Below, one piece after another: positions 22,175-41,485 of a stretch of 64,000 nucleotides of DNA. The notes under the pieces are model-generated. The model saw only the letters and a list, made by a program, of their open reading frames with translations, had not been told where the DNA came from and did no database searches. Every line of letters starts with the position of its first letter. Positions within the stretch are counted from its first letter, which is position 1. The translations under genes were made by a program, and so were the position numbers. The stretch is from Candidatus Latescibacterota bacterium (lineage in GTDB: Bacteria > Latescibacterota > UBA2968): the NCBI GenBank assembly GCA_022823725.1, contig JAJEHL010000010.1:1-64000 (forward strand), read 5' to 3'.

Positions 22175-22297
22175 GAAAAATTTGATTCACTCATTGCTGA
22201 AAAATTGAACGATTCGTTCCCCAATGCTATTTGGTTATACAGACCTCCAGGGACGTAAGTTACTGATTTAAAGTCTCTTGCGGTATTTTTCTCAATT

Positions 22298-22314
22298 CTG
22301 GCACGCGATTTGCA
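22298..22314 (+). promoter_or_regulatory. consensus sigma-54 (-24/-12) promoter
   Basis: CTGGCACG-CGAT-TTGCA matches the YTGGCACG-N4-TTGCW consensus at every defined position. GG (22300-22301) and GC (22312-22313) are separated by exactly 10 bp. The predicted transcript would start near 22325, and the lamin-tail gene starts at 22350 after a GGAGG. rpoN itself lies about 1 kb upstream. Confidence 0.85.
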
Positions 22315-22349
22315 TAAGTCATGATCAAAAAACATTGCCGGAGGTCAAT

Positions 22350-25300
22350 ATGATGAGATACGGGATTGTTGTTGTGATGTTGGGAGTGCTCTGTGGGACA
22401 CAGGTTTTGCACACGGAAGCGGCTGTCGTGATCAATGAGGTCCTTGCAGATCCGCCAGCAGGAGAAAGGGGCGATGCCAATAGGGATGGTGATAGGCACG
22501 GCAGTCAAGATGAGTTTGTGGAAATACTGAATACGGGATTGGATACTATTGCGATCGGTGAGTGGCAGTTGTCGGATCGTGGAACCGATGCGAGCAAGCG
22601 TTTCGCTTTCCCACCAGACACAAAGATTGCTCCGGGCGAATACATCGTGCTTTTTGGCGGTGGGGATGAGGTAAAAATTAAATCTGAATTTGAGGGCCAG
22701 GTCTTTGTCGATGACGGCAAGATCGGCGGGGGATTGACTAATTCGGGAGACGCGGTGTTTTTGATAAATCGAACTTCAAACGATACAATTGCAAGTGCGG
22801 TATGGGGTAAAGAGGGAAATAAGGATCAATCTCTCGTGCGGTATCCTGAAGGGACTGGCGGGTGGGTGTTGCACAGTGCTGACCCTGGCAAGGGATTGTT
22901 TTCACCAGGCAAACCACGGTCGCTTTTCGACAAATTCGAGTCTCTGCCAGAATATCTGGACATGATGGAAGGAGAATCCGTTTCACTCATCCCCGTGATT
23001 TATAGCTACGAAACTGGGGAAACAAGGCGTATTGAAGACGAAGTTTTATGGGTATCGTGGGATACCACTATCGTGAGGATCGAACACGGCGACAGGGTGG
23101 TTGCTGTGCGTGCTGGCGAGACGGAGGTTGGATTTTTCTGGCGGGGTCGAGAAAGTAGTCACACATATATCCGGGTGTTGGAAAAGGAAAAACCGCCATT
23201 GGTGATCTCGGAGGTGTATCCCAATCCCGCCTGGGGTGAAGCAGGGGATACCAATGGCGACGGGGTGCGACACACCTATCAGGATGAATTTGTCGAAGTG
23301 GCGAACCAGGGCGCGCATCCCATTGACATTGGCGGCTATTTTCTCGGTGATGACGATGCCCCGGCAGATCGCTTATTTCGATTTCCCGATAACACAGTGC
23401 TCGACACGCAAGCAGTTGTAGTTCTCTTTGGCGGTGGTGAGGTATCCGGTAGCAATCGGATCTTTGTAGATGACGGCCGCATTGGCGACGGCCTGTCCAA
23501 TTGGAGCGATACCGTGCAGCTATTGGAACCCGATAGCAGCACAGTGGTCGCCTCAATGGTTTATGAGCGCTCGACCAGAGGTGTATCTTATGCCAGAAAT
23601 GAGGACGGTAATTATCTGTTACACAATCAGATATACCAAGAAGATTCCACCTCAGTCGGACGCTTAGAGCCGGGGGATGATCCAATTGAGCCTGAGGTAT
23701 TGACCGATACATTGACTGTCCCGGATGGTATCGTATTTTCCGAAATTCTGATGCTACCCGAACAGGTGGATGCCAATAACGATGGGATTGTCAATCGGCA
23801 TGCAGATGCTTTTGTCGAATTGACCAATATCGGTGTTGATACCCTCGACTTGAGCGGATGGCTGCTCGGCGATGACGATATCATTGTCTCTCGATTCTTT
23901 CCCTTTCCCGATAATGTCCTGCTCGTGCCCGGTGGTTATATCACCATTTTTGGTGGGGGAACACCTGTAGGCATTCCCGGTACTGTCTTGTCTGCCGAGG
24001 GTCAGATTGGCAATGGACTCAGCAGCGGTGGCGATGTCGTCCATCTGATCATGCCCGATGGTAAGACCGTGGTGCGGTCTGTGCGCGTGCCAAAGGCGAC
24101 ACCAGATGTTTCATGGCTTTTTTCACCCGATGATCCACCGATCTTACACCCCAAAATCCCCGGCTGGCACGCGATGTCGCCAGGCACATCATCAGATGGA
24201 CAGGAAGGACCTTCTATAGATATAGCAAATCGAGACACGCTCGACGCACAACTTCTCAAAGGCCTTGTGATCTCTGAAGTCTATCCCAATCCCGCCGCAG
24301 GCGATGCTGGCGATACCAATGGCGATGGGGGACGACACACCTATCAGGATGAGTTTGTCGAGATAGCTAATTTGGGCGTGCATCCCATCGATATTGGTGG
24401 CTATTACCTCGGTGATGACGATGTACCTGTGGAAAAACTTTTTCGATTCCCCGACAGTACAGTGCTCGATACGCAAGCAGTCGTAGTGCTCTTTGGTGGG
24501 GGGGATATGCCCGTTAGCGAGCGGATATTTGCCGATGACGGTCGCATTGGCGATGGCCTGTCCAATGGAGGCGATACCGTGCAGTTGCTTGCGCCAGATG
24601 GAAGCACAGTGATCTCCAAAATGACGTATGAAAACGCGCCTAAAGGTATATCATTTGCGAGAGACGATAATGGCAATTATCTGTTACACAATCAGATATA
24701 CGAAGAAGAGCCTATCTCTGTCGGACGCTTAGGACAGGGCGATGATCCGGATCAACACGAGGGACTAACTGTCTCCAATGGCATCGTATTTTCCGAAATT
24801 CTGATGTTGCCCGAACAGGTGGATGCCAACAACGATGGGATTGTCGATCGGCATGCAGATGCTTTTGTCGAATTGATCAATATCGGTGTTGATACCCTCG
24901 ACCTGAGCGGGTGGCTGCTCGGCGATGACGATATCATTGTCTCTCGATTCTTTCCTTTTCCCGATGATGTCCTGCTCATACCCGGCAGTTATATCACCAT
25001 TTTTGGTGGGGGTACGCCTGTGGGTATTCCCGGTACTGTCTTGTCTGCCGAGGGTCGGATTGGCAATGGACTCAGTAGCGGTGGCGATGTCGTCCATCTG
25101 ATCATGCCCGATGGTAAGACCGTGGTTCGGTCTGTGCGCGTACCAAAGGCGACACCAGATGTTTCATGGCTGTTCTCACCTGATGGTCCTCCTCTATTAC
25201 ATCCCCAAATCTCAGGCAGGCACGCGATGTCTCCGGGTACATCATCAATTTCGTCGGCGGAATCGGATACCCTAATTGGTGTGGATAGCGTATCGGGAAA

Positions 25301-25601
25301 ACCCAGTGTTTCTGAGGGTAAAGACCAGATGGATTGGGGCATTTACCCATCACCCAATCCTTTCAATACAGCCACTGTATTGGGTTTTTACACGTCAGGA
25401 GGCCCTGTTTATGTAACTATATATAACATCCTGGGACAACCCATCAGACGGTTGGTTCAACAATATTTACCTGCCGGATATTATCGACGTATTTGGGATG
25501 GTAAAAATGATTCTGGAATATCTGTGGGTTCTGGAGTCTATATCGTCTTTCTAAAAGATAAGAAAGCGACATTTACACAGCGCGTCGCACTCGTGAAGTG
25601 A
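22350..25601 (+). CDS. secreted lamin-tail-domain (LTD) repeat protein with FlgD/T9SS-like C-terminus
   Basis: The 1083-residue product has a signal peptide (about 1-24) followed by five lamin-tail-like domains starting near residues 26, 284, 461, 639 and 812. Each has an 'ISEV'- or 'SEIL'-type opening strand, 'DEFVEIANxG' and 'VVLFGGG'. A bacterial Ig-like segment (about 208-282) sits between the first and second. The C-terminal 90 residues (from 'YPSPNPFN') are the FlgD-Ig/type IX sorting-like domain ending in 'GSGVYIVFLKDKKATFTQRV'. Domains 4-5 are a recent copy of 2-3. It is probably a surface or extracellular protein; some LTD proteins are linked to nucleases, but no nuclease domain is present. 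Driven by the sigma-54 promoter; ATG follows GGAGG. Confidence 0.88.
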   Translation: MMRYGIVVVMLGVLCGTQVLHTEAAVVINEVLADPPAGERGDANRDGDRHGSQDEFVEILNTGLDTIAIGEWQLSDRGTDASKRFAFPPDTKIAPGEYIVLFGGGDEVKIKSEFEGQVFVDDGKIGGGLTNSGDAVFLINRTSNDTIASAVWGKEGNKDQSLVRYPEGTGGWVLHSADPGKGLFSPGKPRSLFDKFESLPEYLDMMEGESVSLIPVIYSYETGETRRIEDEVLWVSWDTTIVRIEHGDRVVAVRAGETEVGFFWRGRESSHTYIRVLEKEKPPLVISEVYPNPAWGEAGDTNGDGVRHTYQDEFVEVANQGAHPIDIGGYFLGDDDAPADRLFRFPDNTVLDTQAVVVLFGGGEVSGSNRIFVDDGRIGDGLSNWSDTVQLLEPDSSTVVASMVYERSTRGVSYARNEDGNYLLHNQIYQEDSTSVGRLEPGDDPIEPEVLTDTLTVPDGIVFSEILMLPEQVDANNDGIVNRHADAFVELTNIGVDTLDLSGWLLGDDDIIVSRFFPFPDNVLLVPGGYITIFGGGTPVGIPGTVLSAEGQIGNGLSSGGDVVHLIMPDGKTVVRSVRVPKATPDVSWLFSPDDPPILHPKIPGWHAMSPGTSSDGQEGPSIDIANRDTLDAQLLKGLVISEVYPNPAAGDAGDTNGDGGRHTYQDEFVEIANLGVHPIDIGGYYLGDDDVPVEKLFRFPDSTVLDTQAVVVLFGGGDMPVSERIFADDGRIGDGLSNGGDTVQLLAPDGSTVISKMTYENAPKGISFARDDNGNYLLHNQIYEEEPISVGRLGQGDDPDQHEGLTVSNGIVFSEILMLPEQVDANNDGIVDRHADAFVELINIGVDTLDLSGWLLGDDDIIVSRFFPFPDDVLLIPGSYITIFGGGTPVGIPGTVLSAEGRIGNGLSSGGDVVHLIMPDGKTVVRSVRVPKATPDVSWLFSPDGPPLLHPQISGRHAMSPGTSSISSAESDTLIGVDSVSGKPSVSEGKDQMDWGIYPSPNPFNTATVLGFYTSGGPVYVTIYNILGQPIRRLVQQYLPAGYYRRIWDGKNDSGISVGSGVYIVFLKDKKATFTQRVALVK
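23200..25225 (+). repeat. tandem duplication of a two-domain LTD module (two units of about 1.05 kb)
   Basis: The segment from about 23200 to 24170 recurs from about 24265 to 25225. The second halves (23730-24140 and 24783-25190) are nearly identical by eye, differing by scattered substitutions. The offset is 1065 bp in the first half and 1053 bp in the second, so small in-frame indels separate the copies. Confidence 0.85.
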
Positions 25602-27324: not shown

Positions 27325-27359
27325 AGCGGTTGGGCTGGTTGGCCTAACCGCTAAATTTT
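27325..27359 (+). terminator. intrinsic terminator after fdhD
   Basis: An 11-bp stem AGCGGTTGGGC/GCCTAACCGCT (one G-U pair) with loop TGGTTG is followed by AAATTTT. It separates fdhD from the exporter cluster. Confidence 0.65.
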
Positions 27360-27428: not shown

Positions 27429-28322
27429 ATGGTCATTCGAATTTCAAACCTGACAAAAATATATCGCCGCGGCGCAGTTCCCGCCTTAGACGATGTCACG
27501 TTGGACATCCCGCACGGAACATTTGGCCTATTGGGACCCAACGGTGCAGGCAAAACGACGTTGATTAAAATATTATCGACTCAGATGGATGCATCGAGCG
27601 GCAGTGTGACCATGGATGATTTCGATCTGGCAAAAGACCGCACTGAAATACGCCGGCGCCTGGGATATTTGCCCCAACATTTTGGGACCTATCCCCAACT
27701 GACTGCCTGGGAATTTCTCGATTATATGGCTATTTTGGGCGACATACACAATAGAAGAGCGCGTCTAAATCGCGTAGAGCAAGCTCTAAACGAAGTCGGG
27801 TTGTACGAAGCACGCAATCGGCGCTCGGGCACGTTTTCCGGGGGCATGATGCGTCGCCTTGGCATTGCCCAGACCATTCTGACCAATCCAGAGTTTCTCA
27901 TTGTCGATGAACCCACTGTGGGGCTTGATCCGGAAGAACGCATACGGTTTCGGGGTATTTTGGGACGCTTGAGTAGTGATCGCGCAATTTTGATTTCTAC
28001 GCATATTGTGGGCGATATTTCAAGCACTTGCGAAGATCTGGCGGTCCTGGATACCGGACGGCTGATCTTTCGCGGTTCTCCCGGGGAACTCATTTCAAAA
28101 GCCGATGGCAAAACGTGGGAAGTACAGGTCGATGATGCCGGCTTTGAAATGCTGTCGCGGATGTTTCGCGTAGTCACAGTAAATGTTGAGGGCGACCTGA
28201 TGCGTCTGCGTATGGTGGGCGATGGCGAGCCTCCTGCCGATGCCGAAGCAGTCGCGCCCAACCTCGAAGATGCCTATGTCTATTTTGTCGGAGGCGATAC
28301 CACAGGCGAAATCGCCGCGTAA
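27429..28322 (+). CDS. ABC transporter ATP-binding protein (exporter cluster gene 1)
   Basis: The 297-residue nucleotide-binding domain has Walker A 'GPNGAGKT' (36-43), Q-loop 'GYLPQHFG', signature 'FSGGM' (136-140), Walker B Asp160/Glu161 in 'LIVDEPTVGLDPEERIR' and switch His192. The C-terminal extension ends 'AVAPNLEDAYVYF', as in NBDs paired with ABC-2 permeases. It is a paralogue of the NBD fused to the second RND protein: they share 'FGLLGPNGAGKTTL', 'GYLPQHFG' and 'STHIV.DIS'. The ATG at 27429 has GAGGAG upstream; the ABC-2 fusion gene follows by 12 nt and is the likely membrane partner. Confidence 0.93.
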   Translation: MVIRISNLTKIYRRGAVPALDDVTLDIPHGTFGLLGPNGAGKTTLIKILSTQMDASSGSVTMDDFDLAKDRTEIRRRLGYLPQHFGTYPQLTAWEFLDYMAILGDIHNRRARLNRVEQALNEVGLYEARNRRSGTFSGGMMRRLGIAQTILTNPEFLIVDEPTVGLDPEERIRFRGILGRLSSDRAILISTHIVGDISSTCEDLAVLDTGRLIFRGSPGELISKADGKTWEVQVDDAGFEMLSRMFRVVTVNVEGDLMRLRMVGDGEPPADAEAVAPNLEDAYVYFVGGDTTGEIAA

Positions 28323-28334
28323 AGGACCAATACC

Positions 28335-31300
28335 ATGTTATCTATCTTTCACAATGTATGGGGCGTTGCGCGTTATGAGCGCAAAATGCTCTTGCGAACC
28401 ACAAAATTTCGCATTTTGGGCGGTCTGGGGATGAGCATTCCCGTTTTACTCGGCATTGGTTTTGCCATAGCAGAAGCCAATGGTGCTGAACTGCCCGTGG
28501 GAATTGATTCTTATGTTCCATTTTTGGTGTACAGTTTCTTGCAGACCATTGTCATAGCATTTATTGTGGGAGATTTTAGAGCAGCGGATGAACAGGCGCA
28601 TATTTACGAAGTTGTCGCCGGGCGTCCCATTTCAACTGCGGAACTGGTAGCGGGTAAGTATCTGGGCATTGTTAGCGCACTTGTCTTTTTGAGTCTGGGC
28701 GTTCTGCTCTTGACTCTGGGCATCCAAGCGGCAAAGATCAGCATGACGAGCAATCCATTTATAATAGAACCCTATATTGGGTACCTCGTATTCATGAATC
28801 TGCCCGCTCTAATTTTTATGTCCTCTGTGACCTTTTTCCTGGGTGCAGTGTTGCGAAGGCAAGCGGCAGTCGCCCTGATTGTGATCGGGTATTTGCTGGC
28901 TGTCCTGTTATTCCTTGGCAGGCGATATGACGGTATCTATGATTTCGGTGCTTTTTTTATGCCTCTGTATTATTCCGACCTGATTGGTCTGGCAGATATT
29001 ACGCAAGTGGGGCTACAACGCCTGTTTTATGTCTTGCTCGGCATTGGATTTTTTGGCTTTTCGATAGATTGGTATCCCCGTCTTGCTCATTCCTTAGTCG
29101 CGCGGTGGTTTGGCCGGGGATGCGCGCTCACTGGTTTTGGACTGGCTGTGGGCCTTTACTTTTATATGGATGCAGAGGCGGAAGCGGGAAAAGCGTATCG
29201 CAATTCGCTGTTAGAGCAACAAGAAGCGGTTGCGAATATTCCCGTCGCGGAAATAACCCATTACGATCTGGCATTGACGCTTTTGGGAGAAGATCCATTT
29301 GTCGCCTCTGGCACGATTAGATTGAAAAATCCTCACGAATCTCCGCTCGATACGCTGATACTTTCGCTCAATTCCGGATTCAAAATACAGAGCCTGACGC
29401 GCGGTGATGGCGGCACAATAGCGTGGGAGCGGACGGGAAGCGTGATTCGCGTTGTGCCCGATAACCCCCTGCAATCGGAACAAAAACTCGATCTAACCCT
29501 GGCTTATGCGGGGGATATTAACACGGACAGTTTTGACCTCAAACGAGAAAAAGCAAGACCGAAGCTGCGCAAACGCGATAGGATATTTAATAAAGGCTCT
29601 TTGACGGCGTGGATTCGCGACAATTCCATCTTTTTGCCTCCGCGCAGCCGATGGTATCCGGTAACGGGCGTTGATTACGGCTATGAGGACACGCGTGCGG
29701 TCTCTTTTTCAACGGCAAATTTGCAAATAACATATCCGCAAGGTATTGAAGTTATTACTCAGGGACGGGTCGGCAAGACCGATACGCTCGGCACACAGGT
29801 AACGCGTCAATGGATCGTTGAAAAACCCGTGCCTGTCCTGTCGCTGAATGCGGGCGAATACCGCGTTTTTCGCACGACCATTCACGATATTGAGTGCGCC
29901 CTTTACGCCCACCCATCGCATCTGCGTCCGGTCCGATTTTTTGAAGGTGCCGAAGAAGAGATTTTGCGCGCACTCGGTCAAATCATGGACGCAATGGAAC
30001 AGGAATCGGGCATGAAATATCCCTATGCCAGTCTTTCTTTAGTGGAAATACCCTTCCATGTTCAATGGTATTACGAAGGCTGGGAAGAAAAGGGCGGTTT
30101 GACGCAGCCCGGTGTGTTAATGATAGAAGAAGATGTGTTCATGCGGCAGCAATTTACCCGCGATTTTAAGCGCTACCAGGAGCGCTCGCGCGGCAATCGA
30201 GAACCCAAAGACATCAAAAAAGACCTTTTAGTACGCGCGGTTTTTTCGACCTTTTTTTCCAGAGAAGGAAATTCGGGCAGACAGGGACAGCCAGGCGGAT
30301 TATTTCGCAGCCCCGTTGTTCAGCTCTGGGCTTATGACAAGCAGTTTGTGGGCGAACATCATTCCCTTCTCAAAAAGGGTATGCCCCTGTATCTCCAGAA
30401 TGATTTGAGTTCCAATATGACCTCTGCTTTTTATTCCAGCCAACGACGCGGTGGTGGTGGCGGCGATAGGGGGCGTGGCGGGCGCGATGGTCCCAGCGGG
30501 CGCGGTGGTCCCGGTAGTCGCTTCGGATCGGGCGGGGGATCGGGCGCTGCCTGGGATACGTTGATTGCGAAAATGCAACGCAAGTCATTTGCCGAATTAA
30601 ATCCCGAAAAGCAAGCCAGCCTCTATCGCCAGGTTCTCGACACAAAAGGTCCCGCACTTTTTCAAATGATGGAATCTTTTTTGGGTGAGGAAACATTTCG
30701 CACGGTCTTAGACGATATAGACCACAATCACAAATACGAGAACATCGATTTTTCGACCTTTGAACGCGCTGCTGTGGGCGATACCACAGAAAGCGAAGAG
30801 AGCCAAAAATTGCAACGCCTCGTCAACGACTGGATTTTTAGTACAGAAATCCCGGGCTATACCCTCACAAGGGTAAAAGCTCTAAAGATGGACGATGGCT
30901 TTGGGATGGTGGTCTATCAATTGATTCTGCGGATTAAGAATAGCGAACCGGGCAGGGGATATGTGCAAATTACAGCTACGGGACGTGGCGATGAGGCCGT
31001 AAAGGGCGTAGAGATTGAAGGTGGACAGGAAATTGAAGTCTCGATGGTTCTGTGGGAGCAGCCCTTCAGGGTGATGGTCGAACCCTTTTTTGCACGCAAT
31101 CGGCGACCTTTAATGTCCCCCGTGCGCGTTCCCGAAGATGTCACAGAGGGCTTTCCCGTCGCTTATGTCAAAGACGTGACGGGCGAAGAGTCCGGTCCTG
31201 TTGAGATTATTGTAGATAATGACGACGACGGATTTTCAATGCCCGTGCGACGCGCAACGCGCTACTTCCGGCCCGGACTCAAAGGTGGCAACTGGCGCGA

Positions 31301-31820
31301 ACACAGCATGCCAATGGCCTTTGGACGATTTGAGACAAATTATCGAAGAAAGTCCAAGGGGGATGGTGCACAGCCTGCGGTTTGGGCAGCGCAAATTCCC
31401 AGAGACGGCGAGTTTGATGTAAGTTTCTATTTTGTCGATCCCGCAATGGCCAGGCGCATTCGTGTTGCATCGACCTTTACACTCACTATTTTTCACGGGG
31501 GCAAGGCCGATACACTCGAAATAGAACGCGACCAGATGAAAGCCGGATGGAATTATCTGGGGCGATATAAATTTGCCGAGGGGGAAGAAGCCGCAGTTGA
31601 ATTGTCTGATCGTGCAGAAGGGCGTGGGGGTCTCTATGCCGATGCTGTGCGATGGCGCTTTTTTGATCCGCAAAACCCCGATGCCTACGAAGATGAAATG
31701 CCTACCTTTACTGGACGCGGTAGAGGTGGACCGGGTGGTGGACCTGGGGGGCGCGGCGGCGGGGATGGTAGGCGAGGTCCCGGTGGTGGCAGAGGTGGCG
31801 GCGGGTTGTTGGGCTTTTAA
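28335..31820 (+). CDS. ABC-2 permease fused to an inactive M1-peptidase-like domain and a golvesin-like domain
   Basis: This 1161-residue protein has an ABC-2 permease (about 1-285) with roughly six or seven membrane segments. A periplasmic M1-aminopeptidase-like region follows (about 305-700), recognisable by 'YDLALTLLGEDPFVASGTI', 'WYPVTGVDYGYEDTRAVSF' and a GAMEN-like 'WEEKGGLTQPGVLMIEED'. The zinc site is lost: no HExxH is present (the slot reads DLLVRAVFSTFF), and the usual EG-x-x-x-Y reads KGMPLYL. A Gly/Arg-rich tract lies at 704-738, a golvesin/Xly-like beta domain at about 955-1105 ('IIVDNDDDGF', 'GGLYADAVRW'), and a second Gly/Arg-rich tail ends the protein. ABC-2/M1 fusions are known in Bacteroidetes and relatives; the dead site plus golvesin-like end is unusual. 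Confidence 0.8.
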   Translation: MLSIFHNVWGVARYERKMLLRTTKFRILGGLGMSIPVLLGIGFAIAEANGAELPVGIDSYVPFLVYSFLQTIVIAFIVGDFRAADEQAHIYEVVAGRPISTAELVAGKYLGIVSALVFLSLGVLLLTLGIQAAKISMTSNPFIIEPYIGYLVFMNLPALIFMSSVTFFLGAVLRRQAAVALIVIGYLLAVLLFLGRRYDGIYDFGAFFMPLYYSDLIGLADITQVGLQRLFYVLLGIGFFGFSIDWYPRLAHSLVARWFGRGCALTGFGLAVGLYFYMDAEAEAGKAYRNSLLEQQEAVANIPVAEITHYDLALTLLGEDPFVASGTIRLKNPHESPLDTLILSLNSGFKIQSLTRGDGGTIAWERTGSVIRVVPDNPLQSEQKLDLTLAYAGDINTDSFDLKREKARPKLRKRDRIFNKGSLTAWIRDNSIFLPPRSRWYPVTGVDYGYEDTRAVSFSTANLQITYPQGIEVITQGRVGKTDTLGTQVTRQWIVEKPVPVLSLNAGEYRVFRTTIHDIECALYAHPSHLRPVRFFEGAEEEILRALGQIMDAMEQESGMKYPYASLSLVEIPFHVQWYYEGWEEKGGLTQPGVLMIEEDVFMRQQFTRDFKRYQERSRGNREPKDIKKDLLVRAVFSTFFSREGNSGRQGQPGGLFRSPVVQLWAYDKQFVGEHHSLLKKGMPLYLQNDLSSNMTSAFYSSQRRGGGGGDRGRGGRDGPSGRGGPGSRFGSGGGSGAAWDTLIAKMQRKSFAELNPEKQASLYRQVLDTKGPALFQMMESFLGEETFRTVLDDIDHNHKYENIDFSTFERAAVGDTTESEESQKLQRLVNDWIFSTEIPGYTLTRVKALKMDDGFGMVVYQLILRIKNSEPGRGYVQITATGRGDEAVKGVEIEGGQEIEVSMVLWEQPFRVMVEPFFARNRRPLMSPVRVPEDVTEGFPVAYVKDVTGEESGPVEIIVDNDDDGFSMPVRRATRYFRPGLKGGNWREHSMPMAFGRFETNYRRKSKGDGAQPAVWAAQIPRDGEFDVSFYFVDPAMARRIRVASTFTLTIFHGGKADTLEIERDQMKAGWNYLGRYKFAEGEEAAVELSDRAEGRGGLYADAVRWRFFDPQNPDAYEDEMPTFTGRGRGGPGGGPGGRGGGDGRRGPGGGRGGGGLLGF

Positions 31821-31931: not shown

Positions 31932-33005
31932 ATGGACGTGAAGTTTGATTTTTGCTCAAAATCTCTGCTGGTAATTGTCCTTTGTGGGATAGTCGCCTGC
32001 GATCAACAGGCGGAACAGCGCACAGTTGATTTGACGGTTCCCGTTACTGTTCAATCCGTAGAGACGGGAACAATCGAATCTATTGTGACAGCGACCGGAA
32101 CACTTAGACCCGTGCGCGAAGCCCAGATTACGACGGAAATTCGGGGAAGTCTATACTGGAGCAAAGGGGGGAATAACCGCTTGCTCGCCAAGGGGTCAGA
32201 GGTCAGAAGGGGACAGACCATAGCCAGGCTCGACAGCGATGAATGGGTTGTTGGCGCGCGGGTGGAAGCGCGCAAACTGGCGGTTGAAACAGCCAAGCGA
32301 ACGCTACAAGAGCAGGAAACCCTGTTTAGCAGGCAACTGGCAACGGAAATGGCCGTTGAAAGTGCGCGTAGAGCCTGGGCCGATGCAGAAGCCAATTATC
32401 AGGACGCCCTCATCAAGATCGATAAAACCAAACTTTTAGCCCCCATTCAGGGCGTGCTGTCAGAACTTGCGGATATTACGCAGGGAACGCTGGTGAATCC
32501 GAATACCGCAATCGCAAAAATTATGAATTATTCACAGGTATTTGTGGATCTGAAAATTCCCAACGCCCAGATTATTAACGTGAAATTGGGTCAGGGCATC
32601 CGCGTGAGCAATTACGCTTTGCCCGAAGAAGTTTTTGAGGGCGAGATTGTCGAGATGGATCCCGCTATTGATCCAGTCACGCGCACGGTTCAGGTTGTCG
32701 GAATGGTCGATAATCCAGACTTGCTGTTGCGAGCGGGTATGTTTGTCAAAACGGAAATTGTCACGGAATCGCGGCAAAATGTCGTACTTATTGCGCGCAA
32801 TCTCGTTTTGCGACGGCGAAATCAGAAGGTCGTTTTTGTCGAAGAAGAAGGACGCGCACAACAACGCGAAGTCGAAACCGGTCTGGAAGACCGAGACCGT
32901 GTGGAAATTGTGGTTGGTCTTGAACCGGGAGAACAATTGATCACGAGCAATTACGAAACGCTGAGGCCGCGCACCCGGGTGCGGGTCACGGGAGATAGAC
33001 GATGA
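31932..33005 (+). CDS. RND efflux periplasmic adaptor (membrane fusion) lipoprotein
   Basis: The 357-residue product has a lipoprotein signal ending 'GIVAC' (Cys23), then the adaptor layout: a beta-barrel/lipoyl half ('IVTATGTLRPVREAQITTEI'), a helical hairpin (about 105-160), the second lipoyl half ('ALIKIDKTKLLAPIQGVLSE') and a C-terminal barrel ('EGEIVEMDPAIDPVTRTVQV'). Adaptors link the inner-membrane RND pump to an outer-membrane channel; no TolC-like gene is in the window. The ATG at 31932 follows AAGGGAGGA. Its stop overlaps the RND start in an ATGA. Confidence 0.93.
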   Translation: MDVKFDFCSKSLLVIVLCGIVACDQQAEQRTVDLTVPVTVQSVETGTIESIVTATGTLRPVREAQITTEIRGSLYWSKGGNNRLLAKGSEVRRGQTIARLDSDEWVVGARVEARKLAVETAKRTLQEQETLFSRQLATEMAVESARRAWADAEANYQDALIKIDKTKLLAPIQGVLSELADITQGTLVNPNTAIAKIMNYSQVFVDLKIPNAQIINVKLGQGIRVSNYALPEEVFEGEIVEMDPAIDPVTRTVQVVGMVDNPDLLLRAGMFVKTEIVTESRQNVVLIARNLVLRRRNQKVVFVEEEGRAQQREVETGLEDRDRVEIVVGLEPGEQLITSNYETLRPRTRVRVTGDRR

Positions 33006-36000
33006 ATTTGCCGGAATTTTCAACGCGATATCCCGTGACAATTGCCATGGCGACCCTCGCGGTGGTGTTGCTTGGATGGATATCGCTGGACGGTTTGGGC
33101 ACTGATCTCTTGCCCGATTTGCAGACGCCTGTCGTCACCATAGACCTGACAGCACCGGGAAAATCGCCTATCGAGATCGAAGAACGCTATACGCGCCGCC
33201 TCGAACGCGATGTGAGCACGATCAAAGGCGTCAAGCGCGTGTATTCGATTACCCGCTCGGGGCAAGCCGTGGTCATTGCGGAATTTGCCTGGGATGCGGA
33301 TATGGATTACGGATTGCTCGATGTGCAAAAAAGAGTGGGGCGCTATGCGGTCAATGAAGATGTATCGCAGTTGGATGTGACGCGCGAAGACCCGCTCGCG
33401 CTCGCGGTGATGCGAATTGCGATTACAGCAGACGAAAACACGGAACTCGACGCACTGATGGGCACGGTAGAATTGCTGATAAAACCGAAATTGGAAGCCC
33501 TTGAAGGCGTGGCATCTGCCGAGGTGGAAGGGGGATCAGAAAAAGAAGTGCGTGTTTCGCTCGACCCCTATTTGCTCGAAGCGTTTGGACTTTCACCCGA
33601 TGCGGTCATCAATCGCATCGCTCAGGCCAATGCCGATGTATCCGGAGGTACACTCAGAGAAAATCAGCAGTCGTATCTGGTCAAAGCTCTTGGGCGCTTA
33701 AATGACATAAACGATGTGCGGGAAGTCATCGTGGGAGAAAAACGCGGGGGAGGGGGCGCGGTTTCTGGGGACCGCGTGCCGGTGCGTGTGCGCGATGTGG
33801 GCACAGTAGATCTAGAATATCAAGAGCGAGAAACCATTGTACGCCTTGATGGTCGGGAATGCGTTGGCCTCGCTATTTATAAAGAAGCTGGTAGCAATAC
33901 GGTCGCCGTGGTCAATACGGTATTGGATGCGATAGACGATATCGAAGCTGATCTGAGTGGCATGCACTTCACAACTGTCGAAAACCAGGCGCGATTTGTC
34001 GAAGACGCCATAGGCGAAGTCGAAACATCTGCTATCCACGGAGCATTTTTGGCGATTCTCGTACTTTTGATCGCGTTGCGGAGCTGGACAGTGACGCTGG
34101 TGATAGGGTTGGCGATTCCCATTTCCGTATTGGCGACATTCACACTTATGTACTTTGAAGGGCTGTCCCTGAATATTATGACGCTGGGCGGATTGGCTCT
34201 GGGCGCGGGCATGCTCGTTGACAATGCCATTGTGGTCATTGAAAATATTTATCGGCATCTCGAAAGTGGCGAGGATGCACGCACAGCATCGAGCCGCGGC
34301 GCATCTGAAGTCGGCGTGGCTATTCTGGCTTCAACGCTGACGACCGTGGCTGTTTTTTTGCCCATTGTCTATTTGCAGGGGCTGGCGGGCAAGCTCTTTG
34401 TGGATCAGGCGTGGACAGTTGCATTTTCGCTGCTGTCATCGCTAATTGTGGCAATGACGACGATTCCGATGCTGACGTCGCGCATTTTCCGGCGGCTGAA
34501 TACCACGCGTCACACAACTATTAGGTCGGACAAATACTATCGTTTTCTCGATGGTATTTTGAACCACAAGCCCATCCTGCTCGTCGTCGTGCTGCTCATT
34601 ATGGGGGGGACGGGATATATCGCCCGCGAGTTGCAGACCGAATTTATCCCGCGCGAGGATCAGGGGCTGTTTCAAATTGACCTCACATTGTCCGAAGGCT
34701 CGCGTGTGGAACTGAGCGATCAGGTCGCCCTGCACGCCAAAGAGATTGTCGAAAGCATTGGCGGGAGCGATGTGGCGCATGTGTACGCATTGGTCGGCCA
34801 CAATCCCGCTCTGGTATCGAGCGGAGGCGAACCGACGGGTCCCAATCGCGCGACCCTATCGGTGGCTTTAGAGACACAGCGGTCGCGCAGTGTTAGCGAA
34901 TTGGTACGCGATCTGGATCCCATTTTGAGTTCCATGCCCGATATAGAGGTAAAATACAAACTACACGAAACCGCGCTCGAAGGCGTGATGGGGGGGCAAG
35001 AAGCGCCCATTCAGGTCGAAGTGACTGGGGAAAATCTCGATATTTTGGCGCGCATCACAAAAGAGCTTCAGACGAGGATCGAGGATCTGCCTTCGGTGTA
35101 CAATGTGCGCACGAGTTTTCAGGGCGGACAACCAGAAATCGATCTGGCGATTCGCGATGAAGTGGCATCGGCTTTTGGACTGACCACGCAGACCATCAGT
35201 CGTACATTGGAAAGACAACTGTCGGGTGAAGTTGCTGGCGAACTGTCTAAAGACCAGCGCACGAGGGATATCCGGGTAAAATATCGAGATGTCGATCTGC
35301 GCGAACTCCACACCATGCAAATCGAGGGATTAGATGGCGCGATCCTGACATTGGGAGATATTGCCGAGCTTAATATTATTGAGGGTCCCCGCGAAATTTT
35401 GAGAGAAAATCAGCGGCGCGTGGGGCGCATTACGGGATATCTCACGGAAGGACGCATTTTAAGTGAAGCCATTGCCGATGTACGCGCCACTATGCAGGAA
35501 ATGGCGGTGCCGTCGGGGTATCGCATTGAAATTGGCGGTGAAGAGCGCGAACGCGCGGCGTCATTTGAAAGTCTCAAATTCGCACTCCTGCTTTCGATTG
35601 TGCTGGTGTATATGGTTATGGCATCGCTATTTGAATCCACGCTCCATCCGTTCACCGTCATGTTTTCCGTTCCACTGGCCGGCGTTGGCGTGATATTTGG
35701 ATTCTATCTTTTGGGCGAACCGCTCAGTGTGATGGCCTATATCGGCATTATTATGCTGGGTGGTATTGCGGTCAACGATGCGATCGTGCTCGTGGATCGC
35801 ATCAACCAACTCCGGCAAGCTGGCCTGACGCTGCGAGAAGCAATCCTCCAGGGCGGGCAGGACCGCTTGCGCCCCATTATGATGACGAGTGCGACGACTA
35901 TTCTCGCCTTGCTGCCCATGGCACTCGGCTTTGGCGAGGGGGCAAAACTGCGTGCGCCTATGGCTATAGCCGTCATTGCCGGATTGGTAACATCGACATT

Positions 36001-36067
36001 GATGACCTTACTCGTGATACCCACGATGTATGAACTGATTGATCGACTTCGGGGGAAATCCACGTGA
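33002..36067 (+). CDS. RND efflux permease 1 (AcrB/SwrC-like)
   Basis: This 1021-residue inner-membrane permease has 12 membrane segments in the RND arrangement, two large periplasmic loops, and typical N-terminal 'YPVTIAMATLAVVLLGWISL'. In TM4 the proton-relay pair is Asp407-Asn408 ('MLVDNAIVV'), and in TM10 the usual Lys is Asn925 ('AVNDAIVLVD'), a pattern seen in SwrC-like members. A short Gly-rich insertion (GEKRGGGGAVSG, near 244-256) lies in the docking region. Its stop overlaps the next gene by 4 nt; both RND genes probably work with the adaptor upstream, like heteromeric MdtBC-type pumps. Confidence 0.93.
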   Translation: MNLPEFSTRYPVTIAMATLAVVLLGWISLDGLGTDLLPDLQTPVVTIDLTAPGKSPIEIEERYTRRLERDVSTIKGVKRVYSITRSGQAVVIAEFAWDADMDYGLLDVQKRVGRYAVNEDVSQLDVTREDPLALAVMRIAITADENTELDALMGTVELLIKPKLEALEGVASAEVEGGSEKEVRVSLDPYLLEAFGLSPDAVINRIAQANADVSGGTLRENQQSYLVKALGRLNDINDVREVIVGEKRGGGGAVSGDRVPVRVRDVGTVDLEYQERETIVRLDGRECVGLAIYKEAGSNTVAVVNTVLDAIDDIEADLSGMHFTTVENQARFVEDAIGEVETSAIHGAFLAILVLLIALRSWTVTLVIGLAIPISVLATFTLMYFEGLSLNIMTLGGLALGAGMLVDNAIVVIENIYRHLESGEDARTASSRGASEVGVAILASTLTTVAVFLPIVYLQGLAGKLFVDQAWTVAFSLLSSLIVAMTTIPMLTSRIFRRLNTTRHTTIRSDKYYRFLDGILNHKPILLVVVLLIMGGTGYIARELQTEFIPREDQGLFQIDLTLSEGSRVELSDQVALHAKEIVESIGGSDVAHVYALVGHNPALVSSGGEPTGPNRATLSVALETQRSRSVSELVRDLDPILSSMPDIEVKYKLHETALEGVMGGQEAPIQVEVTGENLDILARITKELQTRIEDLPSVYNVRTSFQGGQPEIDLAIRDEVASAFGLTTQTISRTLERQLSGEVAGELSKDQRTRDIRVKYRDVDLRELHTMQIEGLDGAILTLGDIAELNIIEGPREILRENQRRVGRITGYLTEGRILSEAIADVRATMQEMAVPSGYRIEIGGEERERAASFESLKFALLLSIVLVYMVMASLFESTLHPFTVMFSVPLAGVGVIFGFYLLGEPLSVMAYIGIIMLGGIAVNDAIVLVDRINQLRQAGLTLREAILQGGQDRLRPIMMTSATTILALLPMALGFGEGAKLRAPMAIAVIAGLVTSTLMTLLVIPTMYELIDRLRGKST

Positions 36068-39000
36068 CACTTGCCGGTATTGCCGTTCGGCGGCCCGTGA
36101 CCACGGCCATGTTTTTTATTGGTCTGGCTATTTTAGGCGCGATTTCACTGGATCGGTTACCCATTCAGATATTTCCCGAACTCGTTTACCCGGAAGTCTT
36201 TGTCGCGCTCACTCAGCAGGGCTATTCTCCCGAACAGGTCGAGCGGGAATTGGTGATGCCCGTCGAGAGAGAAGTGGGAAAACTCGAAGGTGTTGAGGCA
36301 TATGAATCCTATTCGCGCCAGAATAGTGGCGGGGTACGCATTTCTTACGCGCCCAATACGGATATGAAATTCGCCCTGCTGCAGCTCGAGAGCCGCATCA
36401 CGCGCCTGCAACCCCTTTTGCCCCAAAGAACACGCCTCAATGTACAGCGCTTTGATGCCTCTGATCTGAGTGCCACAGTGATGCAAATTCACGTGTTGGG
36501 CGAAGGCGATATAAATTGGTTGCGCGAATTTGCCGAGGAGAAAATCCGACCGGAATTGGAAGCCGTTGATGGCGTTGTCAACGCGCAGGTCCTGGGCGGG
36601 CAAAGGACGGCTATTGAAATTATTGTCGATCCATTGATGCTGCAGGCGCACCAGCTTTCGATGTCCGATGTTCGCAATCGCATCAATGCGTTTAATACGA
36701 GCCGGCAATATCTCGGGCGGGTGTACGACGGCGACCAGGCTTATGCGGTCAGCATTCAGGGACAATTTACAGACCTCGTGCAAATCCGCAGGGTCGTTAT
36801 CAAGCCGGAACTGCCCCTGCACCTGGGCGACATTGCCAAAATTCGCTACGGCCTGCAGGAACGCACGGACCTGCAGCGCATCAATGGCAAAGCCGCCGTT
36901 GGCATTCGCATTCAAAAAGACGATGAAGCCAATCTGATCGAAATTGCAGGAGAACTCGAAGATACCATCGAACGCGTCAACCGCGATCTCGTCTATGAAA
37001 ATATTCAGCTCGTGATCAGCCAGAATCAGGCAGAGATTATGAACGAAGCCCTCAATTTCCTCAAACGGGCCGCTGTTGTCGGGGGATTGCTCGGGCTTTT
37101 TGTTTTGTTCTTATTTTTGAAAAATCTGCGCTTTGTCGCTGTTTTACTCCTCGCCATTCCGTGTTCTTTGCTGCTGACATTTAATCTGATGTATATGTGG
37201 GATCTCAGTTTGAATGTGCTCTCGATGTGCGGTCTCGCGCTTGCAGTTGGCATGTTGATGGACAACGGCATCGTGGTCATGGAAAATATCTTCAAGCATT
37301 TTGAGCAGGGCAAATCTCCCAAAGAAGCCGCAAAAGCCGGAACCGATGAGGTCGCACGCGCCGTTGTTGCGGCAACCGCGACTACGATTACGATTTTTGT
37401 CCCCGTAGTTTTTATTCAAAGTGACTTTCAGGATATCTTAAGAGAATTCGCGCTGTCCATCGCCTTTCCGCTACTCGCCTCTCTGCTCGTAGCCCTCACA
37501 CTCGTGCCTGCCCTCGCATCGAAAACCCTCTCTCGCGCATCTCGACCACCGACGGAAACAGGCGTGTTGATCGAGATGTACACAGTGTTTCTCAAAGCGG
37601 GATTGCGCCACAGAATTAGCGTATCGTTGGGTATTGTTGGCACGCTTGTCATCACGCTGATCATTTCTTTTTTCTTTATGCTACAACAGGATATCCGCCG
37701 GGAAGAAAGCCGTTTTACCGTCTATATCAGCATGCCCGAAGGCACGACCATCGAAGCCCTCGATGCTGTTGTTGGTGAAATTGAAAGTGCTGTGCGAGAT
37801 CTCAAAGGTGTGGATCGCTTTATGACCAGTATCAGCGAAACCCAGGCGAGTATCAATGTGGAGCTTTTGCCCTTATCCGAACGCCCCGATCAGATTTCTG
37901 TCGATCTTATCAAGGAGAATCTCGAGGAGTCATTCGAGAATGTCCAGGACGCGATTGTGAGTTATGAGGCCATCGCGCGCACAGGCAGGGGAGGTGGTGG
38001 GGGCCGAGGCGGGGGCGGGGGCGGTATTCGGGGTGCGCGCCGAGCCTCGGGCGGATTTAATCTTGAAGGGGGCACCCCTTCGGAAATGGCAGTGATTCGC
38101 GGCTACGATTTCACAGTGCTTCAAATGCTCGCAGACGATCTGGTCTATCGCCTCGAAGAAGTGGAGGAGATCGATCCCAATAGCGTGCGGGCCGATGCAG
38201 AACGCGGCGCATCTGAAGTGCATGTATTGCCCGATGAAGAGGTGATGTTTGACCGGCGGTTGCAGGTGCGCCAGGTACTCAATGCCGTAGCCGACGCCAA
38301 TCCGCGCGGCGCGCGTTCCAATATCGCATTTCTCACACCCGAAGGGGTTGAAATCCCGATTGATATTCGCAATGTCGAAGACCCCGAAGAAGAAGGGGAG
38401 GGGATTGCGGGATTGAGACAGACGCCGATTCTGGGTGCGGGAGGGACGTACATTCCTCTTGTGGAAGTTTCGCATGTGCGCCGGGACCAGGGCAGGAGCA
38501 TGATTTTGCGCACCGATCAATCGCGGCGCGTGATTGTGTCCTATAATTTTGCCGAAGATATTTTGCAGTCTCAACCTCTGCTGGAAGCCTCTCGCGCTTA
38601 TGTGCAAGATGTGGCTTCCGAAATGGTGCTGCCCGAAGGGTATAGCATCGAAATGATCGAGGCAGAGGAAGAGACGATTTATTACTGGATGATGGGCATT
38701 GCCGCGTTGTTGATTTATATGATTTTGGCCTCTTTATTTGAATCGCTTTCTGCACCTTTGATTATTCTGTGTACGTGGCCCGCGGCAATTATTGGATCGT
38801 GCTGGGCACTGGTCTTATCGGGTACGGGATTGACTTCGAGCGAAGCGCCAATGGCACTGTTGGGGCTTATTGTTTTGAGCGGTATTGCCGTCAACAACGG
38901 GATCGTGCTGATTGACGCGATCGAAACCCTGCGCCGACGCGGGTTCAGGCGAGAACGCGCGGTGCTCGCAGCGAGTCGGTCGCGCGTGCGCCCTGTTTTA

Positions 39001-40785
39001 ATGACTTCGGCAACCACCATTTTGGGCATGTTGCCCCTGGCACTCACGTTTGGCGGCGATTACGAAATTTGGCCGCCCTTTGCGATTGTGGTAATCGGAG
39101 GGCTGGCGGTTTCAACGGTTTCCACCCTCGTATTTATTCCCGTGGTGTATATGGGAATTGACCAGACCAAAGCCTGGCTGGCAGATATTGGCTGGTTCGG
39201 AATTATATTGGGTACGGCAGCCGCTGCGGGATTGACGTATTGGGTTGACGATTATTACCAGAGTTTGTTCTGGACATGTCTTTTGGCATTGCCGGCGTGG
39301 ATGTTGTGTATGGGCGCGGTCTGGATAGTGCAACGCATTTATCGCGCGCGCATGGCCTCTCTTGCTGAGATCGGCAATATTGAACATCTCGAAATTCGCA
39401 ATCTGACAAAAATTTACGGTGCGCCGGGGCAGTTTAAGCGCGAATGGGATCGCTTCAAGCGCCGCAATCAGCGGCTATTAGAGCGCGGGCAGGCATTGGT
39501 AGATAAAAAGGTGATTAGGGACAGTTTGTGGTGGAAGTTACCACTTCTGGCACTTCTGACCTATTTGGAAACCTATTTTGAACAGGGGACATGGATCTTT
39601 TTGACCGCGCTTGCTATATGGGGCCTCGTGCATCACCTCGTGTTATGCGCGGCTGCTTTGCGCGATTTTCGGATCGAGAATAGATGGATATCACAAATCG
39701 CCCGATTGATTTTACCGCTGGTCTTTGTGGCCTTTGTGCATTGGCGTTTGGAGCTTATATCTTTGACCATAGCCATCTGTGCGATCTATTTGCTCTATCG
39801 CATCATCGGATTTTTGGCAAATCGCGTTGCACGAGGTCGCGTTGATCCCGAACATATACCGGGCAAGTTGGGGCCTGTTAAAGGTATCGTGTACCGCGGG
39901 GCGGCAGCCATTCCCCTGATTGGGGTTCCACGCCCGCAATTTCAGGCTCTCGGCGGCGTGAGTCTCGACATTCCGCGCGGAATGTTTGGGCTTTTAGGTC
40001 CCAATGGCGCGGGAAAAACCACGCTGATGCGGATCGTGTGTCGGGTCTTATCATCGAATTACGGATCCGTACTTGCCAATGGCAAAATACCGCTTACACA
40101 TCGGAATATGCAGGGGGTGATTGGATATTTGCCGCAGCACTTTGGCCTGTATCTGCACATGTCTGCGTATAATTATCTGGAATACCGCGCGCTTTTGGAG
40201 GGATTTAAGGATGGGGTAGCTCGGCGCAAGCGCGTTCAGGAATGTCTGGAGCAGGTGAATTTGTGGGATAGGCGAGACGATCCGATCGGTTCGTTCTCCG
40301 GCGGTATGAAACAGCGCGTGGGCATTGCACAAACTCTGTTGCACTTGCCGCAGATTATTGTGGTGGATGAACCGACAGCGGGATTGGATCCGCTCGAGCG
40401 AATCCGATTCAGAAATCTGCTGGCGCGATTTAGTCAGGAAAAGATCATTATTTTTTCCACACATATTGTCGAAGATATTTCGGGTAGTTGTAACCAATTG
40501 GCCGTTCTGAATCACGGTAAGGTTCTTTACACGGGAACCCCGATTGAGATGCGCGATTTAGCGCGCGATAAAGTGTGGGAGGCTCTGCTACCAGATCAGC
40601 GCTTCGAAGCATTGGAACGCGATCTGGATATGATTACGCATGTGCGCGTACCCGATGGGATCCGGGTGCGATTTCTCGCCACTGATCCCATCCCTGAAGC
40701 GCGTGCTGTTGCGCCCACCCTCGAAGATGCGTACCTCTATCTTTTGCGACATGGCGATGAATACAAACAGTCTAACATGGCGTGA
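36064..40785 (+). CDS. RND permease fused to an ABC ATPase domain (RND-ABC hybrid)
   Basis: This 1573-residue protein has a full RND permease at about 1-1030 (TM4 Asp400-Asn401; TM10 Asn944-Asn945). A Gly/Arg-rich tract lies at about 640-665. Two further membrane segments follow (about 1045-1062 and 1071-1093), then an ABC ATPase domain. That domain opens with 'HLEIRNLTKIYG' (1107-1119), is interrupted by about 170 residues with several hydrophobic helices, and resumes at 'PQFQALGGVSLDIPRG' (from 1291). Then come Walker A 'GPNGAGKT' (1312-1319), signature 'FSGGM' (1411-1415), Walker B Asp1435/Glu1436 and switch His1467, all intact. The frame is open throughout with no stop. The 3' end overlaps the ABC-2 permease gene, a likely partner. 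I know of no described RND-ABC fusion. Confidence 0.88.
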   Translation: MTLAGIAVRRPVTTAMFFIGLAILGAISLDRLPIQIFPELVYPEVFVALTQQGYSPEQVERELVMPVEREVGKLEGVEAYESYSRQNSGGVRISYAPNTDMKFALLQLESRITRLQPLLPQRTRLNVQRFDASDLSATVMQIHVLGEGDINWLREFAEEKIRPELEAVDGVVNAQVLGGQRTAIEIIVDPLMLQAHQLSMSDVRNRINAFNTSRQYLGRVYDGDQAYAVSIQGQFTDLVQIRRVVIKPELPLHLGDIAKIRYGLQERTDLQRINGKAAVGIRIQKDDEANLIEIAGELEDTIERVNRDLVYENIQLVISQNQAEIMNEALNFLKRAAVVGGLLGLFVLFLFLKNLRFVAVLLLAIPCSLLLTFNLMYMWDLSLNVLSMCGLALAVGMLMDNGIVVMENIFKHFEQGKSPKEAAKAGTDEVARAVVAATATTITIFVPVVFIQSDFQDILREFALSIAFPLLASLLVALTLVPALASKTLSRASRPPTETGVLIEMYTVFLKAGLRHRISVSLGIVGTLVITLIISFFFMLQQDIRREESRFTVYISMPEGTTIEALDAVVGEIESAVRDLKGVDRFMTSISETQASINVELLPLSERPDQISVDLIKENLEESFENVQDAIVSYEAIARTGRGGGGGRGGGGGGIRGARRASGGFNLEGGTPSEMAVIRGYDFTVLQMLADDLVYRLEEVEEIDPNSVRADAERGASEVHVLPDEEVMFDRRLQVRQVLNAVADANPRGARSNIAFLTPEGVEIPIDIRNVEDPEEEGEGIAGLRQTPILGAGGTYIPLVEVSHVRRDQGRSMILRTDQSRRVIVSYNFAEDILQSQPLLEASRAYVQDVASEMVLPEGYSIEMIEAEEETIYYWMMGIAALLIYMILASLFESLSAPLIILCTWPAAIIGSCWALVLSGTGLTSSEAPMALLGLIVLSGIAVNNGIVLIDAIETLRRRGFRRERAVLAASRSRVRPVLMTSATTILGMLPLALTFGGDYEIWPPFAIVVIGGLAVSTVSTLVFIPVVYMGIDQTKAWLADIGWFGIILGTAAAAGLTYWVDDYYQSLFWTCLLALPAWMLCMGAVWIVQRIYRARMASLAEIGNIEHLEIRNLTKIYGAPGQFKREWDRFKRRNQRLLERGQALVDKKVIRDSLWWKLPLLALLTYLETYFEQGTWIFLTALAIWGLVHHLVLCAAALRDFRIENRWISQIARLILPLVFVAFVHWRLELISLTIAICAIYLLYRIIGFLANRVARGRVDPEHIPGKLGPVKGIVYRGAAAIPLIGVPRPQFQALGGVSLDIPRGMFGLLGPNGAGKTTLMRIVCRVLSSNYGSVLANGKIPLTHRNMQGVIGYLPQHFGLYLHMSAYNYLEYRALLEGFKDGVARRKRVQECLEQVNLWDRRDDPIGSFSGGMKQRVGIAQTLLHLPQIIVVDEPTAGLDPLERIRFRNLLARFSQEKIIIFSTHIVEDISGSCNQLAVLNHGKVLYTGTPIEMRDLARDKVWEALLPDQRFEALERDLDMITHVRVPDGIRVRFLATDPIPEARAVAPTLEDAYLYLLRHGDEYKQSNMA

Positions 40786-41485
40786 GTTGTTTTTTTTCGT
40801 CGGAAAGATGCACAGCCTGAGCATGAGAATCGTTTTTCACCGCAAAATGATTTTTATGTTCGGCGGAATTGTGGCGTATTACGCAATTTTATACGCGATC
40901 GCAATCTGGCGTCCCGGCGAAGGATTTTCAGTTGAACAAGCCCTCCATGTACTGGTCGAAGTACCGGGGACAGTGCTTGCGATTTATCTCACGATGGATC
41001 TGGTGTCGGGGGAGAGGGATAAGGATACGCTTGAGATCTTGTTCAGTACGGCGATCAGCCACTATGCGACGTGGTCTGTGAGAATTGTGTCGATCAGTGC
41101 TGCGCTATTTGCCACGCTGATGGCAATGAGCACGATTTCCTATTATTTTTTTGCGGAGTTTCCCTATATTCTGGGCGGCTTGAATGCCTGTATTCCCGCC
41201 TTTTTTATGGTGGGAGCCACATTTTTATTTTCTGTTTTGTGTCGCAGCGGCAATGCGGCAGGTATGCTCGCTGTTGGGCTTCTGATTGGTATTTTGCTTT
41301 CTACCGAGGCGTTTGAGGATACATCGTATTACCTTTTTCTCAAGCCATTTGACCCGCCCTCTGATTTAGATACCAGCCTGTGGATAAATCGCGTGGTCTT
41401 AAACCGCGCGGGCATTGCGATTCTGGGTATATTGTTCATTTTTCTCGCCCTGAGGCGAATGATAGAACGCGAAAAGCTGCTATAA
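40757..41485 (+). CDS. ABC-2 type permease (exporter cluster gene 6)
   Basis: The 242-residue product has about six hydrophobic segments in the ABC-2 arrangement, with the cytoplasmic 'LVSGERDKDTLEILFSTAIS' that matches the conserved 'ERE.GT.E.L...P' type loop. It lacks an ATPase of its own, and its gene overlaps the 3' end of the RND-ABC fusion by 29 nt, so the fused ATPase domain is the natural partner. The start is uncertain: ATG at 40757 keeps the overlap, while ATG at 40808 would shorten the protein by 17 residues. Confidence 0.8.
   Translation: MNTNSLTWRELFFFVGKMHSLSMRIVFHRKMIFMFGGIVAYYAILYAIAIWRPGEGFSVEQALHVLVEVPGTVLAIYLTMDLVSGERDKDTLEILFSTAISHYATWSVRIVSISAALFATLMAMSTISYYFFAEFPYILGGLNACIPAFFMVGATFLFSVLCRSGNAAGMLAVGLLIGILLSTEAFEDTSYYLFLKPFDPPSDLDTSLWINRVVLNRAGIAILGILFIFLALRRMIEREKLL

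Follow-up and report, generated by a model that had tools for sequence, protein, structure and literature searches.

Gene organization at the locus

The window, which is the whole stretch of 64,000 nucleotides of Candidatus Latescibacterota DNA that we analyzed, contains a gene at positions 28335 to 31820 whose frame opens with ATG and has no internal stops. Its product, P0001, is a predicted inner-membrane export protein of a sponge-type Latescibacterota bacterium, and the nearest named relatives, from Candidatus Latescibacterota MAGs, are at most 96% identical across the whole protein. P0001 starts with an ABC-2 permease half and an M1-like domain, followed by a linking region, a Golvesin_C domain, and a Gly/Arg tail. 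The features of the gene and its operon are as follows.

27325..27352, + strand: 12-bp stem resembling a terminator, separating the FdhD gene from the operon (consensus scan only)
27429..28322, + strand: ABC ATPase 1 (NBD1); PF00005, 110 bits
28335..31820, + strand: P0001, ABC-2 permease fused to a dead M1 domain and Golvesin_C; 1161 aa
28335..29180, + strand: ABC-2 permease half of P0001, residues 1-282, about seven TM helices; hydropathy, and loop charges in 20 relatives
29232..30890, + strand: residues 300-852 of P0001, with an M1 fold but no zinc site; hhalign probability 99.8, HExxH absent from the family
31284..31652, + strand: Golvesin_C domain, residues 984-1106; PF25275, 61.3 bits
31890..33005, + strand: membrane-fusion protein (MFP), HlyD/CusB type; PF16576, 88.5 bits
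33002..36067, + strand: RND transporter 1; PF00873, 776 bits
36064..40785, + strand: RND transporter 2 fused to ABC ATPase NBD2 (P0002); PF00873, 606 bits, and PF00005, 91 bits
39448..39948, + strand: insertion in NBD2 between strand 1 and the second strand/Walker A, about four TM helices; alignment against relatives and NBD1, ends approximate
40757..41485, + strand: second ABC-2 permease (P0005); ABC2_membrane_2, 16.2 bits, below cut-off; conserved position

Reading of the sequence suggests that NBD1 probably starts at ATG 27429, not TTG 27402, and that P0005 probably starts at ATG 40757, inside the end of the fusion gene. The Walker A, FSGG, Walker B, and H-switch motifs of NBD1 are all intact. 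In relatives of P0001 with 20-28% identity the conserved order is ABC ATPase, P0001 gene, (TolC), MFP, RND, RND::ABC, and ABC-2 permease. Other families and phyla have this order too, and the deeper of them include TolC; a TolC (OEP) match was over the cut-off in five relative loci, and the operon in the window has no TolC gene. This gene set, conserved in at least four bacterial phyla, appears to join ABC and RND pumps as one export machine. A first-pass annotation of this DNA had recognized the dead M1 domain on a permease and overlooked the conserved ABC/RND operon.

The ABC-2 part of P0001 scored 15.9 bits against ABC2_membrane_5, under the Pfam cut-off, and the same part of its relatives gave ABC2_membrane_2/3 matches reaching 1.7e-7. 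Together with the Pfam and hhalign results for the other domains, these matches bear out the fusion of an ABC-2 permease to an M1-like and a golvesin-like domain that the first-pass annotation had described. Loop charges in 20 relatives place the N-terminus of P0001 inside, and from the position of the last TM helix we infer that the M1-like and Golvesin_C domains are periplasmic. A sequencing or MAG artefact was dismissed, as the P0001 and P0002 genes are both open in two single-contig genomes (G007 and G008). A search of viral contigs found no relatives. An AlphaFold prediction of P0001 from seven near-identical rows had a pLDDT of 31.8 and was not used as a model.

Two other features of the region were seen by motif reading or by eye only. 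Both RND proteins (33002-36067 and 36064-40785) keep one TM4 Asp (VDN/MDN) and have N where AcrB has D408 and K940. At 22278-25601 lies a large protein whose repeats resemble lamin-tail-type domains and have turns rich in Asp; its C-terminal end looks like a sorting-type tail.

The middle region of P0001 has an M1 fold without a zinc site

Pfam Peptidase_M1 matched P0001 over a C-terminal piece only (residues 757-833, 22.1 bits, below GA). We therefore rely on profile comparison, in which residues 300-890 of the P0001 family (20 relatives with 20-83% identity to P0001) were aligned by hhalign with 13 M1 proteins containing HExxH. The match had a probability of 99.8 and an E of 9.9e-29 over 424 columns and ran from the N-terminal domain of M1 through to where the catalytic domain ends. 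Control profiles, five column-shuffled and one reversed, gave probabilities of 0.1 or less. The catalytic half alone gave 98.3-99.3 in a second profile comparison, and one relative from another phylum (L120) was over the Pfam M1 cut-off at 34.3 bits. As judged by these profiles, the assignment of the middle region to an M1 fold over the N-terminal and catalytic domains stands, in agreement with the first-pass annotation.

HExxH was absent in all 46 aligned sequences of the family, which come from four phyla; the survey covered 30 loci, then further loci, and then a set of 20 drawn almost entirely from other phyla. An HExxH elsewhere in the fold was ruled out, since none occurs anywhere in P0001 or the relatives examined, so the M1 domain is dead as first proposed. 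The first-pass annotation had put DLLVRAVFSTFF in the place of HExxH. HExxH is indeed gone, but profile alignments favor a place near residues 657-665 (FRSPVVQLW) for its helix, with approximate pairing, and both this segment and DLLVRAVFSTFF lack zinc ligands. The third ligand, a Glu, is missing as well: LKKGM (679-683) faces LSEGM of the active fusions in profile alignments, and the family has no invariant Glu at this place. The first-pass annotation had given this region as KGMPLYL. A segment first described as GAMEN-like is conserved as a strand, but the GAMEN residues are gone and Q591-P592 is near-invariant at this position.

In the M1-like domain, no Asp, Glu, or His apart from H529, E571, and E599 is invariant across the 46 aligned sequences, and E555 nearly is; W440-Y441-P442, P573, and P592 are also invariant. 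H529, the sole invariant His, lies about 100-130 residues ahead of the HExxH position. Judged from the conserved residues, the zinc geometry of two His and one Glu is unavailable. Because HExxH is absent from every sequence while residues such as W440-Y441-P442, H529, E571, and E599 are kept, the site that is conserved is not the catalytic one. Recent decay was dismissed, as the loss is common to four phyla. That four phyla have retained a dead domain, and with it invariant residues outside catalysis, speaks for a non-enzymatic role.

The dead domains form one clade next to active permease::M1 fusions

In a tree of M1 domains, 26 dead domains formed one clade (support 1.0) that was sister to three active ABC-2::M1 fusions (support 0.999). 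This topology suggests that catalysis was probably lost once within the permease::M1 lineage and that the domain was kept. The three active fusions (L052, L126, and L127) belong to the proteins that carry the annotation 'ABC transporter permease/M1 family aminopeptidase'. As in P0001, an ABC-2 permease precedes the M1 fold, and an ABC ATPase gene adjoins. Unlike the P0001 family, they keep HExxH (HEAAH, HEIAH, HETAH) and have no Golvesin_C match. L126 and L127 have two ABC-2 stretches before M1, whereas P0001 has one and P0005 the other. No RND genes were found beside M1 in L127, and the L126 locus has an RND fragment at one edge. The first-pass annotation had called a pseudo-enzyme on a permease unusual; the dead form is real, but permease::M1 fusions with active sites are already known, and it is the dead, golvesin-bearing form that is new.

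The GAMEN strand of the active fusions is degenerate (for example, YAQGFP) despite their intact HExxH. The genome to which the window belongs has a single Peptidase_M1 match, the dead domain of P0001; genuine HExxH M1 proteins are present in other genomes of its phylum. Dead-M1 permease paralogues can occur several to a genome, as in G052 (L049, L054, L055, and L056) and in G118, which carries four, including L123.

Golvesin_C and the Gly/Arg tracts

The Golvesin_C match of P0001 (61.3 bits against a gathering cut-off of 31.6) recurred in 20 of 20 aligned relatives, confirming the golvesin-like domain of the first-pass annotation. It resembles weakly the C-terminal domain of xanthan lyase (6f2p, E 0.014), and by this analogy Golvesin_C may be a glycan binder. 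In literature on golvesin, xanthan lyase carbohydrate-binding modules, and Latescibacterota transporters, we found nothing about a P0001-type protein.

Gly/Arg tracts lie at about residues 704-737 and in the C-terminal tail (1127-1161) of P0001. The tract that had been listed as a further addition is present, but only near relatives share it, and it falls outside the conserved parts. A Gly/Arg-rich tract also occurs in P0002, at about 637-660, so that two different proteins of one operon carry one. Some relatives (L043 and L047) have such tracts placed differently.

An RND transporter is fused to an interrupted ABC ATPase

P0002 contains ACR_tran (residues 5-1032, 605.8 bits) and ABC_tran (1298-1439) in one frame, and the Walker A, signature, Walker B, and H-switch of its ATPase part are intact. 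The order is RND, two hydrophobic helices, NBD strand 1, an insertion of about 165 residues, and the remainder of the NBD. The figure of about four TM helices in the insertion is our own count, of which hydropathy resolves only part. Strand 1 (LEIRNLTKIYG) has an aromatic A-loop residue, and its K and Y are invariant in relatives. In seven of eight relatives, the best hit of a strand-1 profile derived from NBD1 proteins lay 202-217 residues ahead of Walker A. Individual scores overlap those of shuffled controls, and it is this constant position that carries the weight. An AlphaFold prediction of the C-terminus from four rows had a pLDDT of 33.7 and was not used as a model. In a tree that sampled few other ABC ATPases, NBD1 and NBD2 were sister groups, and the NBDs of the active ABC-2::M1 fusions fell elsewhere. 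With its interrupted NBD, the RND::ABC fusion may amount to something beyond a variant, and it is possibly more novel than the dead M1 domain.

The dead-M1 protein and the RND::ABC linker occur together

Among 386 genomes around the window, full-length relatives of the dead-M1 protein were found in 35 and the RND::ABC linker in 36. Both were present in 34, leaving one genome with the dead-M1 protein only and two with the linker only (Fisher p of about 3e-45, with shared ancestry ignored). By our count, the two were on one contig in 26 of these 34 genomes. We also looked at phyla that are defined only as distinct from that of the window. The phylum to which G383 and G253 belong, not represented among the dead-M1 sequences of the query, had the dead-M1 protein in 27 of 59 genomes, the linker in 28, and both in 26, with one and two discordant genomes, respectively. 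The dead-M1 protein was present in five of six genomes in the small phylum of G118 and in one of 60 in the phylum of G203. Four dead-M1 paralogues (L054, L055, L056, and L123) lacked the operon.

Possible function of P0001 in a composite exporter

We tentatively favor, at a little under an even chance, a model in which P0001 contributes one of the permease subunits to a composite ABC/RND exporter of the envelope, where the dead M1 and Golvesin_C domains would serve as a periplasmic binding or hand-over module. The ABC-2 half of P0001 would pair with NBD1, and P0005, the second ABC-2 half, with NBD2, the C-terminal part of the RND::ABC fusion. A heterodimeric ABC-2 exporter formed by P0001 and P0005 is the simplest reading because the active fusions have two ABC-2 stretches, here split between these proteins, and because NBD1 and NBD2 are sisters. 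The RND::ABC fusion would tie this exporter physically to the RND pair, the membrane-fusion protein, and a TolC channel; it is the fusion and the operon that point to such contact. Dead M1 and Golvesin_C would bind cargo (or the adaptor) at the cargo's exit from the ABC part and relay it, uncut, to RND/MFP/TolC. The "binding or handover" role first suggested for the dead M1 domain is plausible. Against this explanation, the paralogues without the operon indicate that a dead-M1 protein can persist without RND genes. It is possible, although doubtful, that the conserved loci represent an exporter class of at least four phyla that combines a heterodimeric ABC-2 exporter with an RND pair, draws on both ATP and the proton gradient, is joined by the interrupted-NBD RND::ABC protein, and hands over cargo through dead M1/Golvesin_C.

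ABC and RND pumps normally work apart, and the orphan dead-M1 genes have no RND neighbors. Both points would fit two separate but co-regulated exporters, an ABC-2 exporter with dead M1 and an RND efflux pump, where the RND-fused NBD is only the second ABC-2 ATPase. We consider this rather unlikely given that the NBD and RND are one polypeptide, that the interrupted NBD is conserved in several phyla, and that the co-occurrence of dead-M1 protein and linker is near-perfect.

The M1-like domain could also bind no cargo and act instead as a structural or mechanical scaffold, docking to the MFP or TolC or anchoring to glycan through Golvesin_C. The weak resemblance of Golvesin_C to the xanthan lyase domain would suit this role. 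Other inactive metallopeptidases serve as binding or docking modules, and Tma108, a yeast M1 pseudopeptidase described as inactive, acts by interacting with proteins (PMC11266112). Tma108 is like P0001 an inactive M1 family member, but it is eukaryotic, soluble, and ribosome-associated and is not on a transporter, whereas P0001 sits on a permease. There is no direct counter-evidence to a scaffold, and sequence cannot tell docking from cargo binding; we nonetheless regard it as unlikely. That the M1-like domain is still an enzyme through other residues or another metal site, as the invariance of H529, E571, and E599 might hint, is very improbable given that all 46 sequences lack both HExxH and the third Glu and that the one invariant His lies so far before the HExxH position.

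Comparison with known systems

In tripartite exporters, ABC and RND pumps are usually seen as alternatives for the engine. A conserved operon fusing the two, with a membrane-interrupted ATPase, would open dual-energy coupling to experiment. As a sister group of the active fusions, the dead M1 clade is a clean example of an enzyme turned transporter module, and its invariant residues mark a candidate site. In the open-access literature, which leaves most subscription papers outside, we found no description of the dead M1 clade or of an ABC/RND-fusing operon.

Pumps of the MdtABC type are RND tripartite pumps with two RND subunits. The operon in the window is similar in having an MFP and two consecutive RND genes, with TolC in deep relatives, but one of its RND proteins bears a C-terminal ABC ATPase and it has two ABC-2 permeases. 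In MacAB-TolC, an ABC exporter cooperates with an MFP and TolC (PMC8277102). MacB is one NBD-permease protein with no RND part, whereas the operon described here joins ABC-2 permeases and RND pumps. The GldA/GldF gliding motility ABC transporter was among the nearest named NCBIfam models for the permease and the NBD, with scores well below the equivalog cut-offs (GldF, 19.7 versus 288.5; GldA, 174.9 versus 402.6).
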